NCBI GenBank assembly: GCA_029265715.1
Contig: JAJUGZ010000005.1
Span: forward strand, 1-64,000
Origin: Bacteroidota bacterium
GTDB lineage: Bacteria > Bacteroidota > Bacteroidia > Bacteroidales > Prolixibacteraceae
Reading direction: 5' to 3'
Length of the DNA: 64,000 nucleotides
Below are positions 2,349-55,277 of this stretch, in pieces (within the stretch, counting starts at the first letter, position 1; each line of letters opens with the position of its first letter). The notes under the pieces are model-generated. The model was not told the DNA's origin and ran no database searches. It was given only the letters and a program-made list of their open reading frames with translations. The translations under genes were made by a program, and so were the position numbers.

Positions 2349-2954
2349 TTATTTGTGCCTTTTCTTTAGTTCGCGCGCCAAATCTTCGATGCGGTAGCCT
2401 TTATGGCTCAGCAGCACAATCAGGTGGTACAGCAAATCGGCTCCCTCGTACAAAAAGTTTTCATCGTCGTTGGCCATGGCCCCGATGATGGTTTCAACAG
2501 CTTCTTCGCCCACTTTCTGTGCAATTTTGCGTGTGCCATTTCTGAACAGCGAGGTGGTGTACGAACCTTCCGGCATTTCTTCTTTTCGTTTATCGATAAA
2601 GTCTTGAAGATACTCGAGGAACATCAGGTCGCTTTCTTCGTTTTCTTCGTTCCAGCAGGTGTCGGCACCAGTGTGGCAAGTCGGCCCTACCGGATTTACT
2701 TTAATTAGAAGTGTATCGTTGTCGCAATCGCTCAGTATTTCAACCACGTTCAGGAAATGCCCCGACTCTTCGCCTTTGGTCCAAAGCCGGTTCTTGGTGC
2801 GGCTGAAAAAGGTCACCTGGCCGGTTTCTTCGGTTTTGGCCACGGCTTCTTCGTTCATGAATCCGAGCATGAGCACTTTCAGGGTGGTATTGTCTTGAAT
2901 AATAGCCGGAATCAGGCCATTTAGTTTGGTGAAATCAAGTTTTGTACTTTCCAT
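2349..2954 (-). CDS. hisIE: Bifunctional phosphoribosyl-AMP cyclohydrolase / phosphoribosyl-ATP diphosphatase
   Basis: HisI motifs (FFSRTKNRLWTKGEESGHFLNV, DTLLIKVNPVGPTCHTG) fused to HisE (GEEAVETIIGAMANDDENFLYEGADLLYHLIVLL). Confidence 0.95.
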   Translation of the reverse strand: MESTKLDFTKLNGLIPAIIQDNTTLKVLMLGFMNEEAVAKTEETGQVTFFSRTKNRLWTKGEESGHFLNVVEILSDCDNDTLLIKVNPVGPTCHTGADTCWNEENEESDLMFLEYLQDFIDKRKEEMPEGSYTTSLFRNGTRKIAQKVGEEAVETIIGAMANDDENFLYEGADLLYHLIVLLSHKGYRIEDLARELKKRHK

Positions 2955-3019
2955 TTTATAACTCGTTTAGATATTTCTTATTTTATAAAGTCACAGCTCC
3001 AATCAGGGGCTCCAAACAT

Positions 3020-3236
3020 GTTTCATTCGTATAAATTTTCAAAGCCGGTTCGTACAATTTTCGTAACAGCTTTTTCTTTTCAATCAAATTAGCACCGACA
3101 TGGAATAGCCATTTGTACATCTTCGGGTGGTGTGAACTTTGGCGCACATGGCTATTTCATCTGTAAATGAGTTGTTTTTAACTTGTCAGATGGAATAGCC
3201 ATTTATTCATTCTCGTGCTCTTATGGCTATTTCGTG
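3020..3236 (+). repeat. Structured repeat, locus A: conserved flank + 61-nt hairpin unit (3100-3160) + 29-nt spacer + 46-nt hairpin unit (3190-3235)
   Basis: ATTCGTATAAATTTTCAA…GTTCGTACAATTTTCGTAAC flank; ATGGAATAGCCAT…ATGGCTATTTCAT inverted repeats; same blocks recur at ~12803-12941 and, in reverse orientation, at ~54955-55277. Confidence 0.85.
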
Positions 3237-3241
3237 GTTGG

Positions 3242-3997
3242 CTAAAGGCGAATAGGGATATTTTTCGAACGAAGATAGTTCTTCAGATCGGGTATCGCAA
3301 TTTCTTTGTAGTGGAAAATGCTGGCTGCCAGTCCGGCATCGGCTTTCCCGGTTGTAAACACATCAACAAAATGATCCATGTTCCCGGCCCCGCCCGATGC
3401 AATGATCGGTATTTTCAGCATATCGGCCATTTGTGCCAGTTCGTTGTTGGCAAAGCCGGCTTTGGTTCCGTCGTGGTCCATCGAGGTAAACAGGATTTCG
3501 CCGGCGCCGCGGCTTTCGGCTTCTTTGGCCCACGAAAACAGTTCCTTGTCGGTAAGTATCCGGCCCCCGTTTACCGTGACAGTCCAGCGTCCTCCACAGT
3601 TTTTTGCGTCGATGGCTACCACAACGAACTGGGTCCCGAAGTTGAGCGCCAGCTCATCAATGAATTTCGGGTTGCGCACGGCCGACGAGTTGATACTGAT
3701 CTTGTCTGCCCCGGCGCTTAGCAACGCCTCAGCATCTTTCAGTTCACTAATGCCACCACCTACCGTAAAGGGGATATTTAGTTCGCGGGCAATGCGTTTT
3801 ACCAGTTCGACGAACGTTTTCCGGCCTTCGTGTGTGGCAGTGATGTCGAGGAAAACCAGTTCGTCGGCTCCCTGTTCTGCATACATGGCGCCAAGTTCGA
3901 CCGGGTCGCCTACGCTTTTAATATTCAGAAAGTTGATACCCTTCACGGTCTGACCGTCTTTGATATCCAGGCATGGGATGATTCGTTTTGCTAACAT
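3242..3997 (-). CDS. hisF: Imidazole glycerol phosphate synthase cyclase subunit
   Basis: [20 protein letters not shown] start and full HisF TIM-barrel motifs. Confidence 0.97.
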
Positions 3998-4024
3998 TTT
4001 TTAGTTCCTGAGGCACTTTAATGC

Positions 4025-4747
4025 TTATCGTATAAATTTACTAATCTCCTCTAATTTAATTCGTCCTTCGTAAATTGCTTTTCCGGTAATGACGCCCGGA
4101 ACGCCCATTTCGTTGAGGTCGTGAATGTCTTTCATTGATGCAATTCCACCGCTGGCGATCAATTCCAGATCAGGAAACTGTTCCATGATTTCTTTATACA
4201 GGTCAATGCTTGGCCCGGTTAACATGCCGTCGCGGGCAATGTCGGTCGAGATGACTTTTCGGATCCCGTTGCTGGTGTAGCTTTCGATGAAATCAAGAAT
4301 CGGCAGTTCCGAAACCTCGAGCCAGCCGCTTACGGCAATCTTTTTGTCTTTGGCGTCGGCCCCCAGAATGATTTTCTCCGGACCATATTTTTCAATCCAG
4401 TGCAGAAATGTGTTGCGGTCTTTCACCGCAATGCTTCCGCCGGTTACCATTTGTGCCCCGCTCTCGAAGGCAATCCGAAGATCTTCGTCTGATTTCAGTC
4501 CTCCTCCAAAGTCGATGACCAGCCCGGTTCGGGTGGCAATGGTCTCGAGCACCTTATAGTTGACAATGTGTTTGGCTTTGGCTCCATCCAGGTCGACCAG
4601 ATGCAAGCGTGTTATTCCGGCGCCTTCAAACATCTTGGCTACTTCCAATGGATTTTCGTTGTACACCGTTTTCTGGCTGTAATCGCCCTGAGACAGGCGG
4701 ACACACTTGGCGTCGATCAGGTCAATGGCTGGAATAATTGTTATCAT
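4025..4747 (-). CDS. hisA: Phosphoribosylformimino-5-aminoimidazole carboxamide ribotide isomerase
   Basis: [20 protein letters not shown]…[10 protein letters not shown]… HisA motifs; operon context. Confidence 0.97.
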
Positions 4748-4765
4748 TTTTTAATAGTTGCAAAG

Positions 4766-5131
4766 TTACAGGGGTCCTAAGTATTCATTAGTTTTCTGTT
4801 GTTGAAATGAAGAAAGCATCCTTTCTATTTCTCCTTGTTTCTTCAAACAGAGAATTAAATTCTGATTCTTCAAAGAATCCGATATTTCTTGAAATTCTTA
4901 ACTGGTTCTGCGGTTCGGATAGTACCCCCATTGAAATTTTCGAGAATCGGACGAAATCAGATTTTGTTTTTCGTCCAAAGCCTTCCGCAATATTTGATGG
5001 GATAGAAATTGAGTATCGTCCGATCAGACTCGTTAATCCGTAAATTCCTTCTTTCGGAGATGCTTGTGTGATTTTGTAAATATTGGTTACTAAATCCATC
5101 GATTTTTGCCAAACAGTAAGTTTTCAATTTC
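4766..5131 (-). pseudogene. Frameshifted four-helix-bundle protein (S23 rRNA intervening-sequence protein family)
   Basis: Core ORF 4788-5099 MDLVTNIYKIT…LIGRYSISIPSNIAEGFGRKTKSDFVRF… is typical of the family. Upstream IENL and TVWQKSM lie in different frames (near 5117-5122), and downstream EIERMLSSFQQQKTNEYLGPL* lies in another frame (near 4829-4836). Confidence 0.75.
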
Positions 5132-5155
5132 TCTGCTAGTTTGTTCCTCTGTTTC

Positions 5156-5755
5156 TCAAATTCGTAAAAAATTTTCTAATATTTTAGAACCGACAGTCCC
5201 GCTTTTTTCGGGGTGAAACTGGGTAGCATAAAAGTTATCGCGGTGCAACGCAGCACTGAATGGATTGATATAATCGCCAAGGGCTGCCGTGTGTTCGCCA
5301 ACCGTGGCATAATAGGAGTGCACGAAATAGACATATTGATTTTCGAGCGACGGATCGAAAATGGCGCTTTTCAGCTTGGTAATGGTATTCCATCCCATGT
5401 GTGGGACTTTGGTTACGAACTCCATTCCGGGGTCAGGAACAAACCGTCTTACCTTTTCTTCAAAGATGCCCAAGCAGGGTGTGTCGCCTTCTTCCGAATG
5501 CGTACACATCAGTTGCAATCCCAGGCAAATACCTAAAACAGGTTGTTTAAGTTGCGGGATCAGTACATCCAGGCCTTCTTTTCTCAGGTAAGCCATTGTG
5601 GTGCTGGCCTCGCCAACGCCCGGGAAAATAACCTTATCGGCCGCTTTAATTTTTTCATGGTCGCCGGTTATTTGGGCCGAAACTCCCAATCGGAGCAAGG
5701 CATTGCTTACCGATTCAATATTTCCGGCGTTGTACTTTATAATGACGATGTTCAT
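5156..5755 (-). CDS. hisH: Imidazole glycerol phosphate synthase glutamine amidotransferase subunit
   Basis: Class-I GATase motifs PVLGICLGLQLM and QFHPEKSG; operon context. Confidence 0.96.
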   Translation of the reverse strand: MNIVIIKYNAGNIESVSNALLRLGVSAQITGDHEKIKAADKVIFPGVGEASTTMAYLRKEGLDVLIPQLKQPVLGICLGLQLMCTHSEEGDTPCLGIFEEKVRRFVPDPGMEFVTKVPHMGWNTITKLKSAIFDPSLENQYVYFVHSYYATVGEHTAALGDYINPFSAALHRDNFYATQFHPEKSGTVGSKILENFLRI

Positions 5756-7350: not shown

Positions 7351-8472
7351 TTATAATGCTCCCTTTGTTGATGGTAGTTCGAAATTAAACACGTCTTTTT
7401 TTATTGCCATTTTGATGGCTCTTGCCAACGCCTTAAAGATACCTTCAATTTTATGATGTTCGTTGGTCCCTTCGGCCTGAATGTTCAGGTTTGCGAGCGA
7501 TGTGTCGGAGAACGACTTAAAGAAATGAAAGAACATTTCGGTTGGCATGTCGCCCACTTTTTCTCTTTTGAACTCGGCGTTCCAAACAATCCACGGGCGG
7601 CCTCCAAAATCGATTGCAACCTGGGCCAGACAGTCGTCCATGGGCAGGCAATAACCGTAGCGCTCAACGCCGCGCTTGTCGCCCAAGGCCAGTTTAAAAG
7701 CTTCGCCCAGGGCCAGGCCGGTATCTTCAATGGTGTGGTGCTCGTCAACTTCCAGGTCGCCGTCAACCTGAATGGTTAGGTTAACTCCGGAGTGGCGGGC
7801 AATCTGGTCGAGCATGTGGTCGAAAAAGCCCAGGCCGGTGTGGATATTGCCTTTTCCGGTTCCGTCCAGGTTTAGTTCAACTTTGATTTTTGTCTCTTTG
7901 GTATTGCGCTCCACAACGGCTATGCGTTCGGGGGCGGCAACTTTGGCGTAAATATCGTCCCAGTCGTTGGTAATTAGCACACAATATTCAGCCAATCCTT
8001 TTTCCCGAAGTAGCTCCTTGAGCGAACCATCATTCAACAAGATTCCTTTTGCGCCCAGGTTTTTAGCCAGTTCAATATCTGTCAGGCGGTCGCCGATCAC
8101 GAAACTATTGGCCAGGTCGTAACTGCCATCCATATATTTCCCGAGCAATCCGGTCCGGGGCTTTCTTGTTGGGGCATTATCAGCCGGGAAGCTCCGGTCG
8201 ATCAGGATATCGTCGAAAACGATGCCTTCGTTTTTTAGTGTTGTAAGCATTTTGTTATGGGCAGGCCAAAAGGTGTCTTCCGGGAAACTGCTGGTTCCCA
8301 GACCATCCTGGTTGGTGACCATCACCAGTTCGTACGAAAGATTTTTGGCAATGAAGTGCATGTTCCTGAAAACTTTGGGGATGAATTCCAGTTTCTCCAG
8401 CGAATCAATCTGTTCGTCGGCTGGCTCCACGATCAGGGTTCCGTCACGGTCGATAAAAAGGGCTCGTTTCAT
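7351..8472 (-). CDS. hisB: Bifunctional histidinol-phosphatase / imidazoleglycerol-phosphate dehydratase
   Basis: HAD motif FIDRDGTLI and IGPD motifs [31 protein letters not shown]. Confidence 0.97.
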
Positions 8473-8564: not shown

Positions 8565-9596
8565 TTAAATCAGTTCATTCAATGCATCCAGCAATCGTTC
8601 GTTTTCTTCCGGAGAGCCAACGGTGATTCGCAGGCTGTCTTCGCAAAGGGTTACTTTGGAACGGTCGCGGACGATTATCCGGTTTTCTGTCAGGTATTCG
8701 TAGATACCTCTGGCATCGTGCATTTTTACGAGGATAAAGTTAGCATCGGAAGGATAAACTTTTTGCACAAACGGGAATTTTGGCAACGTTTCGATCAGTT
8801 TTAGCCTTTCGGTTAAAATGATATTTACCCATTCGGCTTTTTCCGGAGCTTTTTCCAATAGCTCAAGTGCTTTTTGCTGGGTCAGGATATTGATGTTGTA
8901 CGGGTATTTGATTTTATTGAATATGTGGATAATCTCTGGTTGTGCAAAGGCCATTCCCAGTCGGATTCCTGCCATTCCCCAAGCTTTCGAGAAAGTTTGA
9001 AGGATGATCAGGTTTGGATATTGGTCTAATTGGGGCAGGAAGCTGCTTTCCGGGGCAAAATCAATGTAGGCCTCGTCAAGCACCACAATTCCATCGAATC
9101 CCGAAAGCAATTTTTCAATTTCTCCACGATCCAGCAGATTGCCTGTCGGGTTGTTGGGCGAGCAGATGAAAATGGCTTTGGTGTACAGGTTCGCTGCATT
9201 GAGCAAATCTTGCGCTTTGAAATTGTAATTTTTGTCGAGCTTTACTTTTCGCACTTCCACGTTGTTGATGTCGGCTGCCACCTGGTACATTCCGTAAGTT
9301 GGGTCGATTGAGACGATGTTGTCGACACCTGGCTCGCAAAATGAGCGGAAAACAATATCGATCGGTTCATCACTGCCATTCCCCAGAAAAATTTTTTCCG
9401 GGGGCACCTGTTTAATCTCGGCGATTTTGGTTTTCAGCCTCCATTGCAGCGGATCCGGATAGCGGTTGTAGGGGGCGTTGTACGGATTTTCGTTGGCATC
9501 GAGAAAAACCTCGGCTTCACCCGAAAACTCATCACGGGCTGAAGAGTATGGTTTCAATGCCTTTATATTGTTGCGAAGTAATTTTTCGAGATTCAT
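8565..9596 (-). CDS. hisC: Histidinol-phosphate aminotransferase
   Basis: Class-II aminotransferase motifs ([27 protein letters not shown]). Confidence 0.95.
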
Positions 9597-9607
9597 TGTT
9601 GTATATT

Positions 9608-10900
9608 TTAGTTGCTTTTCCTGATATCATTCAACCTTACCGTCACTGCATTTTTGTGGGCATTTAGTTGTTCGGCAGCAGCCATCGTTTCAATAACCGG
9701 TCCAAGTGTTTTCATCCCTTCCGAGGTTATTTCCTGAAAGGTAATTTTTCTCAGATAACTGTCGAGATTGACACCGCTGAACGAGCGGGCCCATCCGTTG
9801 GTGGGCAGTGTGTGGTTTGTTCCCGAAGCATAATCGCCGGCGCTTTCGGGGGTGTAATTTCCCAGGAAGACCGAGCCGGCATTGGTAATCTGTTCGGCTA
9901 CTTCCAGATAATTTTTCATCGAAATGATCAAGTGTTCCGGCGCATACGAATTGATCAGGTTTATCATCGCCTGAACGTCGTTTAATACAATGGCCTGACT
10001 ATTGGCCAGTGCTTTTTCGGCAATGGCTTTTCTGGGGAGCTCGTTTAACTGGCGGGTAAGTTCTTGTTCTACTTGCCCGATCAGCAAAGCATCGTTGGTA
10101 ATCAGCACAACCTGCGAGTCGGGGCCGTGTTCGGCTTGCGAGAGTAGATCAGCTGCAATGAAGGCCGGATTGGCACCCGAGTCGGCCATGACAGCTACCT
10201 CGGAAGGACCAGCCGGCATGTCGATCGCCACATCATTGATGCTGACCAATTGTTTGGCTGCCATGACGTATTGATTGCCAGGGCCAAAAATTTTGTTCAC
10301 ACGAGGTACGCAATCCACGCCGTAAGCCATTGCCCCGATGGCCTGAATTCCGCCGAGTTTGAAAATTTTAGTAACGCCAACCACCTTGGCCGCAAACAGG
10401 ATAGCCGGGTTGATTTTGCCTTCTTTATCAGGAGGCGTGCATAAAATAATTTCTTTGCACCCTGCAATTTTAGCCGGAATAGCCAACATCAACACGGTTG
10501 AAAAAAGTGGGGCAGAACCTCCCGGAATGTACAATCCGACTTTTTCGATGGGCACAGGTTTTTGCCAGCAAATAACGCCTGGTGTTGTCTCTATTTTGCT
10601 GGTTTGTGGAATTTGTGACTCGTGAAATTTTCGGATATTTCCGGCTGCTGTTAGTATAGATTCTTTCAGGGTCTCATCCACCAAATTAATTGCTTCGGTA
10701 ATTTCTTCCTGACCGACAGCGATATCGCTGATAAAAACGCCATCGAATTTCTCGGTGTATTTTCGGATAGCCTTAATCCCCGACGTCTTGATATCGTTCA
10801 GGATAACCTGTACTTGTTGTGTAAGTTCCCCAACGTTGAATAAAGGACGCTTCAGAATATCGTCCCAAGTGTTTTCTTCCGGATTTATGTAGGTTTTCAT
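9608..10900 (-). CDS. hisD: Histidinol dehydrogenase
   Basis: [28 protein letters not shown]…GPGNQYV…[11 protein letters not shown]…[12 protein letters not shown] HisD motifs. Confidence 0.97.
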
Positions 10901-11793
10901 ACGCGTTGTGTTTTTGCATTTTTCGTTTTCAAAGCCAGAAAGTTTCCGGCGAACAGGAACAATATGCCCAGAGCAACGATTGCTCCCCAGTGGTAATTTT
11001 CAAAGAATGAAGAAATAATCAGCGCAATGACCGGAGCAACCAGGGTTGTATAGCCGGCGCGGTCGGGGCCGATGTCGCCAACCAGTTTTAAATAGAGGGT
11101 GAATGCGACAATAGAGCCAAGAACAGACAGGTACAGCAGTGAACCAATGTATGGAAGGGAGACATCGAGCGAGAAACTTCTTCCTGAAAGCGGAACCATT
11201 AGCATCATCGCCAGGCTCCCATAAGTCATGCTAAACGCGTTCGTTTGAATGACCGGTAGCTTTTTTGTTTGATTGTAGGCTGAGAGAATGTTTCCTAACG
11301 AAGCCAGGATGATTGACGCAAAGCAGAACAGAAGCGCCTGGTATGCCTTTGAAATTTGCGTTGCATTGGAAAGTTCATGGTTAAAAATCATGACTGTGCC
11401 GGCAATACCCAAGATCGCGCCAAGCATTACCTCTTTTTTGATTTTGCCTTTCAGTAACAGATAATTGAAAAGAATATTGGTAAAAATGGAAAACGAGAAG
11501 ATGATTGCGACAACTCCGCTTGTCAGTTTTGTTTCGGCCAAATAAACCAGCCAATAATTAAATCCGAACAAGATTATTCCCTGAAGCATCATCCGGAGGT
11601 GTTCGGCGAGGGTGTACCGCAGATTGAGTTTGCGGATCAGGCTAAATGCCATCAACAGCAATCCTGCAACCAGGAACCGATAGACCACAGATACCAGCGG
11701 GTCGACTTTGCCTAGCTGGAGTTTGATGGCAAACCAGGTCGAGCCCCAGATAAAACAGGGGATAATAAAATACAGTAGTTGTCGTGTCTTCAT
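10897..11793 (-). CDS. EamA/DMT-family membrane transporter
   Basis: About ten hydrophobic segments; IIPCFIWGSTWFAIK start typical of EamA; overlaps the hisD start by 4 nt. Confidence 0.85.
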   Translation of the reverse strand: MKTRQLLYFIIPCFIWGSTWFAIKLQLGKVDPLVSVVYRFLVAGLLLMAFSLIRKLNLRYTLAEHLRMMLQGIILFGFNYWLVYLAETKLTSGVVAIIFSFSIFTNILFNYLLLKGKIKKEVMLGAILGIAGTVMIFNHELSNATQISKAYQALLFCFASIILASLGNILSAYNQTKKLPVIQTNAFSMTYGSLAMMLMVPLSGRSFSLDVSLPYIGSLLYLSVLGSIVAFTLYLKLVGDIGPDRAGYTTLVAPVIALIISSFFENYHWGAIVALGILFLFAGNFLALKTKNAKTQRV

Positions 11794-11798
11794 AATTG

Positions 11799-12656
11799 TT
11801 ACAGGATCATTTTCTCGATCGGGATTACCAGGATGCCCTGAGCGCCGGCGGCTTTCAGCTTGCTGATAATTTCCCAGAAATATTTTTCTTCGATCACTGA
11901 GTGGATCGAACTCCAGCCTTCTTCGGCCAATGGCATGACTGTTGGGCTTTTCATGCCAGGGAGCAGCGACTCGATTTCTTTGAGTTTTTCATTCGGGGCA
12001 TTCAGTAAAATGTATTTTTTCTTGTCGGCCCGCTGAACCGATTCCATCCGGAATATCATTTCGTCGAGGATAGCCTGTTTTTCTGGCGAAAGATTGGGAG
12101 TAGCAATCAGTAAGGCTTCTGAGTTAATCACTACTTCAACTTCTTTCAGTCGGTTGCTGACCAGTGTGCTTCCTGAACTTACAATGTCGAAGATGGCATC
12201 GGCCAGGCCAATCCCGGGCGCGATTTCTACCGATCCGGTGATGACGTGGATATCGGCTTTTACGTTTTTCTGGTCAAGAAAATCTTTCAGGATAACCGGA
12301 TACGAAGTGGCGATTTTTTTCCCGTTGAAATATTCGATCCCGTTATAGACATCGTCTTTCGGAATTGCCAGTGATAGGCGGCATTTGCTGAATCCCAGTC
12401 GTTTGGCAATGATCACATTTTCTTTCTTTTCGAGCATTTCGTTTTCGCCCACAATGCCTACGTCGGCCACTCCGTCGGCCACTGCCTGGGGAATATCATC
12501 GTCGCGGAGGAATAAAACCTCTAACGGGAAATTGCTTGCTGCAGCAATTAGTTTCCGGGAACTGAGGGGGAGTTTAATTCCTGCGTCATCGATTAATTTT
12601 ACTGAATCTTCGTTGAGGCGTCCTTTTGTCTGGATCGCAATTTTTAAAATACTCAT
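11799..12656 (-). CDS. hisG: ATP phosphoribosyltransferase (long form)
   Basis: LKIAIQTKGRLNEDSVKLI…DDIPQAVADGVADVGIVGENEM…ATSYPVILKDFL and C-terminal regulatory domain. Confidence 0.96.
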   Translation of the reverse strand: MSILKIAIQTKGRLNEDSVKLIDDAGIKLPLSSRKLIAAASNFPLEVLFLRDDDIPQAVADGVADVGIVGENEMLEKKENVIIAKRLGFSKCRLSLAIPKDDVYNGIEYFNGKKIATSYPVILKDFLDQKNVKADIHVITGSVEIAPGIGLADAIFDIVSSGSTLVSNRLKEVEVVINSEALLIATPNLSPEKQAILDEMIFRMESVQRADKKKYILLNAPNEKLKEIESLLPGMKSPTVMPLAEEGWSSIHSVIEEKYFWEIISKLKAAGAQGILVIPIEKMIL

Positions 12657-12674
12657 TTTGAAACGGGTTTTAAA

Positions 12675-12710
12675 TAAAAAAGGCTTACCTGATGTGGTAA
12701 GCCTTTTTTT
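12675..12710 (-). terminator. his operon attenuator terminator hairpin
   Basis: Minus strand GGCTTACC-ACATCA-GGTAAGCC followed by TTTTTT, ~20 nt upstream of the hisG ATG. Confidence 0.9.
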
Positions 12711-12745
12711 GGGTTAATATCTTTTTTGAAATTCAGACAAAACAA

Positions 12746-12808
12746 TTACGGCCTACCGGTTGACAGGTTCATGTGATGATGGCCGTAATGAGTAAATCCG
12801 TTTTTCAT
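12746..12808 (-). CDS. his operon leader peptide, MKNGFTHYGHHHMNLSTGRP
   Basis: 20-codon ORF with His-Tyr-Gly-His-His-His run; lies between a 9-bp inverted repeat (ATTACGGCC/GGCCGTAAT) and the terminator upstream of hisG. Confidence 0.85.
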   Translation of the reverse strand: MKNGFTHYGHHHMNLSTGRP

Positions 12809-12941
12809 TCGTATAAATTTTCAATGTAAGTTCGTACAATTTTTGTAACCGTGTTCGCTTTTCAAGCTGAATTCCAACGGATGGAATAACCAGTTATACA
12901 TTTTCGGTTTGTATGAGCGATGGCTCTTCTGGTTATTTCAT
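12803..12941 (+). repeat. Structured repeat, locus B: conserved flank + 61-nt hairpin unit (12881-12941)
   Basis: TTCATTCGTATAAATTTTCAATGTAAGTTCGTACAATTTTTGTAAC flank; ATGGAATAACCAG…CTGGTTATTTCAT stem with two compensated pairs relative to locus A. Confidence 0.85.
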
Positions 12942-13129
12942 ATGTTTTATTAATTCGGCTGCAATGTTAGTAATAAATTGAAAGCAATCCAAACGAACAG
13001 GCGTTAAATTATAATTAAGTGTGACGAAAGAGGCAATGTATTTTATATGTAGTCGTACAATCGATTGCATAATTCTGTTCTTTTCCTATTTTTGTGGCTG
13101 ATAACCTATACCGATTTAAACAGTTATTT

Positions 13130-51272: not shown

Positions 51273-51298
51273 TGAGGCAGGATTTTATCCTTGTTTTC

Positions 51299-51392
51299 GC
51301 CATCCCTTCGCCGGCATTACCCGGAGCAGGTTCGGTGGGTATGATCTCAGCCTGTTATTATTCCAGCTTGCGCCGGATAGGCACCCCATTGC
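51299..51392 (-). promoter_or_regulatory. TPP riboswitch (THI element)
   Basis: Minus strand GGGGTGCC…GGCTGAGATCATACCCACCGAACCTGCTCCGGGTAATGCCGGCGAAGGGAT. Confidence 0.95.
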
Positions 51393-51606
51393 GTAAAATT
51401 ATCGGTTCAAAGATAGGGCAATCTGAGATAGGATTCAAAGTTTATTGTTTGGGAGAAGCAGTTTTAAAATAAAATTAAGCAAGGCGCGATGAGAAGGGAC
51501 TCAACATTTATGAGTAAATAATGACGCTTTGTGGTATTATTTTCGATGAATTTTCGCATATAACGCTATTTTTATGCCGTTGATTTTTTTACCTAAACCA
51601 CATTTA

Positions 51607-54954: not shown

Positions 54955-55277
54955 ATGAAATAGCCATAAAAGCTAAAGCTTATACCAACCGGGAATGTAT
55001 AAATGGCTATTCCATCTCGTTGAAAAACCATTTTGAAAAACAGAAATAGATACGAAAATTGTACGAACTAACATTGAAAATTTATACACATGAAATAGCC
55101 ATGATTTGCAAACACCAACAGATAATGAAAATAATAACCGGATCATGGCTATTCCATCTGACAACTTAAAAACAAATTATTTACAGATGAAATGAGCATG
55201 ATCTGGAAAACCCCAAACGGAATGATTAACAAATAATTATTTTTAATTGGCGTTTCTGCTAACCATGCTCATTTCAT
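54955..55277 (-). repeat. Structured repeat, locus C: 61-nt unit (54955-55015), flank, 68-nt unit (55090-55157), 29-nt spacer, 91-nt unit (55187-55277)
   Basis: Reverse-orientation copies of the locus A/B flank, spacer and hairpins; outer unit has a compensated stem ATGAAATGAGCATG/CATGCTCATTTCAT. Confidence 0.85.

Follow-up and report, generated by a model that had tools for sequence, protein, structure and literature searches.

A candidate ribosome-mediated histidine attenuator ahead of hisG in Prolixibacteraceae, with a mobile repeat at the leader start codon

Known his attenuators and the hisG leader

The his attenuators of enterobacteria (hisL of E. coli and Salmonella; Rfam RF00514) lie before hisG, carry a cluster of His codons in a short open reading frame (ORF), and offer three alternative pairings, 1:2, 2:3, and 3:4, ending in an intrinsic terminator; their leader peptide contains a run of seven His residues. 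The minus strand upstream of hisG in the window, by which we mean the whole 64,000-nucleotide stretch of DNA analyzed here, has all of these features, but its four His residues are split by Tyr-Gly instead of forming a run of seven, the 1:2 pairing is optional in relatives, and a mobile repeat occupies the 5' end. In the Bacillus cereus group, Peptostreptococcaceae, and Erysipelotrichales, candidate His-leader attenuators have been reported (PMC9413887); they were also discovered comparatively and also combine a His-rich leader with attenuator and terminator hairpins before his operons, but they belong to another phylum and contain three to five consecutive His codons. A structured 5' element without an Rfam match has been described before hisG in Flavobacterium psychrophilum and other Flavobacteriaceae, along with clues of leader peptide attenuation before amino acid operons in F. 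psychrophilum (PMC9723704). That element concerns the same phylum and the same gene, although a different lineage of the phylum, and the main text of the study presents it without leader sequence, pairing, or covariation. The mechanism that we propose is a classic one; the window element is a new instance of it, and a hisG 5' element had already been noted in Flavobacterium. We found no description of His attenuators in Prolixibacteraceae in the open-access literature. The wide attenuation survey by Lopatovskaya et al. (2010; cited in PMC4833913) may contain earlier predictions for Bacteroidota.

The leader ORF (12746 to 12808, minus strand) encodes the peptide MKNGFTHYGHHHMNLSTGRP in 20 codons, and direct reading of the sequence places its ATG at 12808 and the end of its stop codon at 12746. 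The regulatory His codons are codons 7, 10, 11, and 12 (12773 to 12790), that is, four within six codons; when ATG ORFs of 8 to 45 codons were screened on both strands of the 64 kb for at least four His in six codons, this leader alone was found. Strand 1 (ATTACGGCC, 12781 to 12789) overlaps the His codons and forms a perfect inverted repeat with strand 2 (GGTAGGCCGTAAT, 12745 to 12757), which begins 15 nt past the last His codon and of which 12757 to 12750 is the part that pairs with strand 3. Strand 3 (GGCTTACC, 12696 to 12703) pairs in turn with strand 4 (GGTAAGCC, 12682 to 12689), and six T residues (12676 to 12681) form the U tract of an intrinsic terminator. The 2:3 pairing, between GGTAGGCC and GGCTTACC, amounts to 8 bp including one G.U. 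The preliminary description of this DNA, made from the letters alone, had claimed a 20-residue His-rich ORF, a 1:2 repeat over its His codons, a 3:4 terminator with a T tract, and a 2:3 antiterminator with one G.U, and the sequence confirmed each of them. The leader RNA folded at −42.8 kcal/mol, compared to −22.0 kcal/mol for dinucleotide shuffles (z = −6.4; 0/200).

On this basis, the hisG operon is very probably under the control of a ribosome-mediated histidine attenuator acting on its transcription. RNA polymerase would start near 12955 and transcribe the leader. When charged tRNA-His is ample, the ribosome would reach the stop codon and mask strand 2, and 3:4 would then pair and terminate transcription ahead of hisG. 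Under a shortage of charged tRNA-His, the ribosome would stall at His codons 7 to 12, mask strand 1, and leave strand 2 exposed; strand 2 would then pair with strand 3, and the polymerase would continue into hisG. If the leader were not translated, 1:2 would pair, leading to termination. The size of the ribosome footprint is such that a stall at codons 10 to 12 exposes strand 2, while a ribosome at the stop codon masks it. Leader translation, stalling, and the histidine response, as well as the promoter, are what we infer from the arrangement of these parts.

No leader family matched the hisG leader in Rfam searches, whether at gathering or at relaxed thresholds; His_leader (RF00514) did not reach its gathering threshold and was not among the matches listed, even at E ≤ 10. 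Matches to Phe_leader and Thr_leader were weak, lay on the terminator stem far under the cutoffs, and were rejected. The layout nevertheless agrees with the enterobacterial ribosome-stalling type proposed earlier for this leader, and that interpretation is supported. A T-box or a riboswitch sensing tRNA-His or histidine directly is conceivable insofar as T-boxes control his genes in Firmicutes (PMC9413887), but neither the gathering-level search nor the relaxed matches listed contained one, and what is conserved here is instead a coding His cluster, so that the probability of such a sensor is practically negligible.

Downstream of the attenuator, the genes follow each other on one strand in the order hisG-EamA-hisD-hisC-hisB, a PurU-like gene, a thioredoxin-like gene, and then hisH, hisA, hisF, and hisIE. 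The first structural gene, hisG (11799 to 12656, minus strand; PF01634 and PF08029), is separated from hisD (9608 to 10900, minus strand) by a gene for an EamA-family transporter (10897 to 11793, minus strand; PF00892), which overlaps hisD by 4 nt, lies inside the his operon, and possibly has a role in the transport of histidine or a precursor. The ORFs of hisC (8565 to 9596) and of a bifunctional hisB (7351 to 8472) come next, both on the minus strand. The hisH-hisA-hisF-hisIE stretch (2349 to 5755, minus strand) has PF00977 matches at 4058 to 4738 and 3299 to 3985; copies of the repeat and a small, unrelated ORF lie between its genes. The names of hisD, hisC, hisB, hisH, and hisIE and of the PurU-like and thioredoxin-like genes were assigned from sequence. 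The small ORF in the hisH/hisA gap (4788 to 5099, minus strand) resembles, by eye, the four-helix-bundle proteins of 23S rRNA intervening sequences. Elsewhere in the window, a TPP riboswitch (51286 to 51398, minus strand) scored over the Rfam gathering threshold.

Conservation and alternative pairings among relatives

The source genome belongs to the Prolixibacteraceae lineage, and the nearest public hisG loci are those of Prolixibacteraceae. We found 61 hisG loci and read the upstream region in 60, the remaining one (L059) beginning within hisG. An H-x-G-H-H leader was present in 55 of the 60 readable relatives. Each of three His positions was occupied by His in 53/55 sequences, with T or C as the third base, and the distance from the last His codon to strand 2 was 12 to 19 nt. 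In five loci (L001, L031, L034, L050, and L052), the stop codon falls within or at strand 2 and GGTRGG is still kept; in three others (L025, L035, and L060), the ORF ends earlier, yet GGTRGG remains. Since this part of strand 2 is kept despite a shifted stop or frame, the constraint there acts on the RNA, and the comparison indicates that the His codons are constrained as codons and strand 2 as RNA.

These observations bear on another mode of control, a TnaC-like arrest of the nascent peptide through a conserved end, GR(P/L/Q)*, rather than starvation stalling at the His codons. Most relatives do conserve that end as GRP, GRL, or GRQ. However, GGTAGGC is kept in the other frame or past an earlier stop, which points to RNA constraint, and in distant relatives the His codons persist while the peptide end does not. 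Peptide arrest is thus very improbable.

We then aligned the window leader with 53 distinct leaders of relatives (n = 54). The 3:4 helix was paired in 100% of the cells and showed 22 double-change cells; compensatory change occurred at three pairs, and the covariation score was reached by 0/500 shuffles. The 2:3 helix was paired in 96.5% of the cells, versus at most 57% in slid controls. All of its changes were one-sided and went through G-U, strand 3 changing from A to G and strand 2 retaining a U that pairs with either, as expected because the shared strand must pair with two partners. For 1:2, 86.4% of the cells were paired, versus at most 42% in slid controls, but no covariation over shuffles was detected in the 54 aligned leaders, and this pairing, perfect in the source genome, has not been retained by about half of the relatives. 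For all three helices, kinship makes the leaders nonindependent, so that these counts are inflated and overstate the number of events. Sequence comparison establishes in this way the parts of the attenuator, how they are spaced, that they are conserved, and that 3:4 covaries; of all parts, the 1:2 arm is conserved least.

The switch was also examined with minimum-energy folds, which are not a kinetic model. With strand 1 masked and the transcript ending after strand 3, 2:3 formed in 54/54 leaders; with strand 2 masked, 3:4 formed in 54/54. In the unmasked fold, corresponding to the absence of a ribosome, 1:2 was best in 25/54, including the window, and 2:3 in most of the others. The proposed check in relatives, namely, that the His-codon ORF and the three pairings should be conserved, held for the ORF, 2:3, and 3:4; the picture for 1:2 is divided, since it is paired in most cells yet is the best fold in fewer than half of the aligned leaders. 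The check did not refute the interpretation. Taken together, the attenuator interpretation of the hisG leader is well supported.

A covariance model of the leader matched 113 of 140 genomes of the family, representing 21 of 23 genera, and matched the source genome once; this model found no second His leader there, the next best match having an E value of 0.15. The model could become an Rfam family. At the level of the order, a His-rich leader was found in 64 of 80 hisG upstream regions and a leader with a terminator in 62 of 80, compared to 0/80 in the antisense control and, in mononucleotide shuffles, 1.15% for the leader and 0.025% for leader and terminator. Outside the order, the corresponding figures were 16/20 and 14/20. 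By these counts, the His attenuator switch is conserved across Bacteroidota.

The same data leave scarcely any credibility to a constitutive terminator, such as one that ends a small RNA or some other transcript, next to an ORF that is His rich by chance. The stem alone does give weak, subthreshold matches to several unrelated Rfam models, but both the aligned relatives and the phylum as a whole conserve the leader with its spacing, and a leader together with a terminator occurred in only 3 of 3,620 shuffled regions. The ribosome-mediated attenuator provides a concrete, conserved case for a whole phylum that usually does without Shine-Dalgarno sequences, and it suggests that coupled transcription-translation control operates in Bacteroidota.

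Across the order, 28 of 68 leaders contained, 3' of the His codons, a sequence significantly complementary to the strand 3 arm (P ≤ 0.05); most of these have GGCTTACC or GGCTTGCC arms. A second terminator class at this level, with AAGGTTTGCA arms, showed mostly nonsignificant 2:3 pairing. Loci with AAGGTTTGCA arms, such as L093, L102, L116, and L119, look like a second class of his leader in which the antiterminator is not evident; in these leaders, UUUGCA of strand 3 has a possible partner in a short UGCAG close to the stop codon.

Two successive His leader-terminator units were found in 11 of 181 hisG upstream regions. In seven of these (L096, L108, L122, L124, L137, L260, and L261), the second leader follows the first terminator at a distance of less than 50 nt, so that one transcript probably spans both units; the other four are L110, L131, L135, and L263, and in L110 a separate promoter seems to serve the second leader. 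Tandem attenuators with two different short ORFs are known before the Mg2+ transport and virulence operon mgtCBR of Salmonella (PMC3641672). Both arrangements have two leader ORFs per leader region, but only in the relatives studied here are both members of the pair His rich. How a series of two His attenuators shapes the response can be tested.

The predicted promoter and the repeat at the leader start codon

The best Bacteroidota-type promoter between 12640 and 13100 is predicted upstream of the leader, with a −33 element, TTTG, at 12990 to 12993 and a −7 element, TAACATTG, at 12962 to 12969 (minus strand), 20 nt apart. Transcription is expected to start at about 12955. A promoter score of this height is equaled by chance in about 4% of random window stretches (12/300), and the alignment with relatives is thus stronger evidence for the promoter than the score: TAnnnTTG lies 6 to 25 nt (median, 18) before the leader ATG in 53/54 relatives. 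A transcription start below the leader, which would speak against attenuation, is not what this placement indicates. It also brings the sole correction to the preliminary description, whose anatomy was right but which confined the element to 12660 to 12808, while the element reaches upstream to about 12993; the mobile repeat lying between promoter and leader had also gone unnoticed there.

In the window, the −7 element precedes an ATGAA at 12941 by 20 nt; it does not stand directly in front of the leader ATG at 12808. The promoter region aligned to relatives with a mean score of 14.1 when taken before 12941 but only 2.4 when taken before 12808. A promoter directly upstream of 12808 was rejected, the sequence there being the end of a repeat. 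This repeat, a 133-bp type A unit (12804 to 12936, minus strand) with boundaries defined from 43 aligned copies, has 49 blastn matches in its own genome and is absent from the leader in relatives, which display the empty site. Behind the host ATGAA, the unit opens with the hairpin ATAGCCAT...ATGGCTAT, and it finishes in ATGAA. Its insertion at ATGAA thus split the leader start site, leaving the original start (12933 to 12941, minus strand) as a two-codon micro-ORF, ATG AAA TAA, and recreating a start codon for the leader, with the promoter now farther upstream. The insertion lengthened the 5' end and left the sequence of the switch untouched.

The insertion puts 133 extra bases and the two-codon ORF ahead of the leader, and these could lower leader translation. 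In the extreme case, the repeat would have uncoupled the switch, and the attenuator would be a decaying relic whose leader is translated inefficiently or transcribed from a different site. In line with this, the distance from promoter to leader is now about 150 bases, with a hairpin and a two-codon ORF in between. Nevertheless, the start codon is intact, as are the His codons and strands 1 to 4; 1:2 is better than in most relatives, and the same repeats precede many intact genes. We therefore regard decay as unlikely, and because the attenuator sequence is intact, the switch likely still works after the insertion.

A repeat family with a Y1 transposase

The source genome contains 114 exact core hairpins, and GATGAA or ATGAA precedes the hairpin in the unit. 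The units are of two types, A of 133 bp and B of about 97 bp, both ending in ATGAA. Besides the copy in the leader, the window contains copies at about 3027 to 3160 (minus strand) and at 54955 to 55157 (plus strand), and further copies were found in this and other Prolixibacteraceae genomes (loci L150 to L187, L210 to L239, and L284 to L310), very often exactly at the start codon of a gene. A single Y1 transposase gene was found (PF01797; L209:2642-3142, plus strand), the coding 3' end of which runs into a type A unit. Its motifs, DHLH, WQ, and YIQNQEHHH, resemble those of subclass 1.2 of TnpA-Y1, for which a survey lists no terminal or associated structures (PMC6006769). As in REP/RAYT systems (PMC6006769), many palindromic copies, here more than 100, accompany a single-copy Y1 transposase gene flanked by one of them. 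In contrast to REP/RAYT, the unit overlaps the transposase 3' end, the foot of the hairpin carries GATGAA or ATGAA and no GTAG-type tag, and copies lie at start codons.

We consider it fairly probable that these repeats form an undescribed Y1 transposase-associated element family of Prolixibacteraceae, which targets ATGAA, accumulates at start codons and recreates them, acts as a portable 5' leader, and in the window captured the start of the leader peptide. The open-access literature yielded no account of repeats that target start codons, and a repeat family at start codons is a more surprising matter than the attenuator itself. The effect of such insertions on translation of the downstream genes can be tested.

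In the source genome, 24 of 42 distinct array ends open a long ORF, defined as one of at least 80 codons, or 60 if cut by the end of the locus; the 42 are the 56 ends minus 14 directly followed by another unit, counted by hand from the listing. In comparison, among the 225 ATGAA sites in the window, 27 provide the initial ATG of an 80-codon ORF (Fisher test, 1e-9). The genes opened by array ends, named from sequence, include enolase, galE, recQ, rlmH, and biotin carboxylase. A second repeat insertion, at an enolase paralogue, could be compared to one orthologue, which lacks a repeat at its start codon and whose upstream region is not alignable with the array. A preference of the element for ATGAA, together with selection against intragenic insertion, would explain the pattern without any recognition of start codons. 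A long ORF is opened by 23 of the 28 copies from four other genomes (2e-14), a count favored by taking, for each copy, the longest ORF among the nearby ATGAA sites, but nearly all of these ORFs start at +132 to +135.
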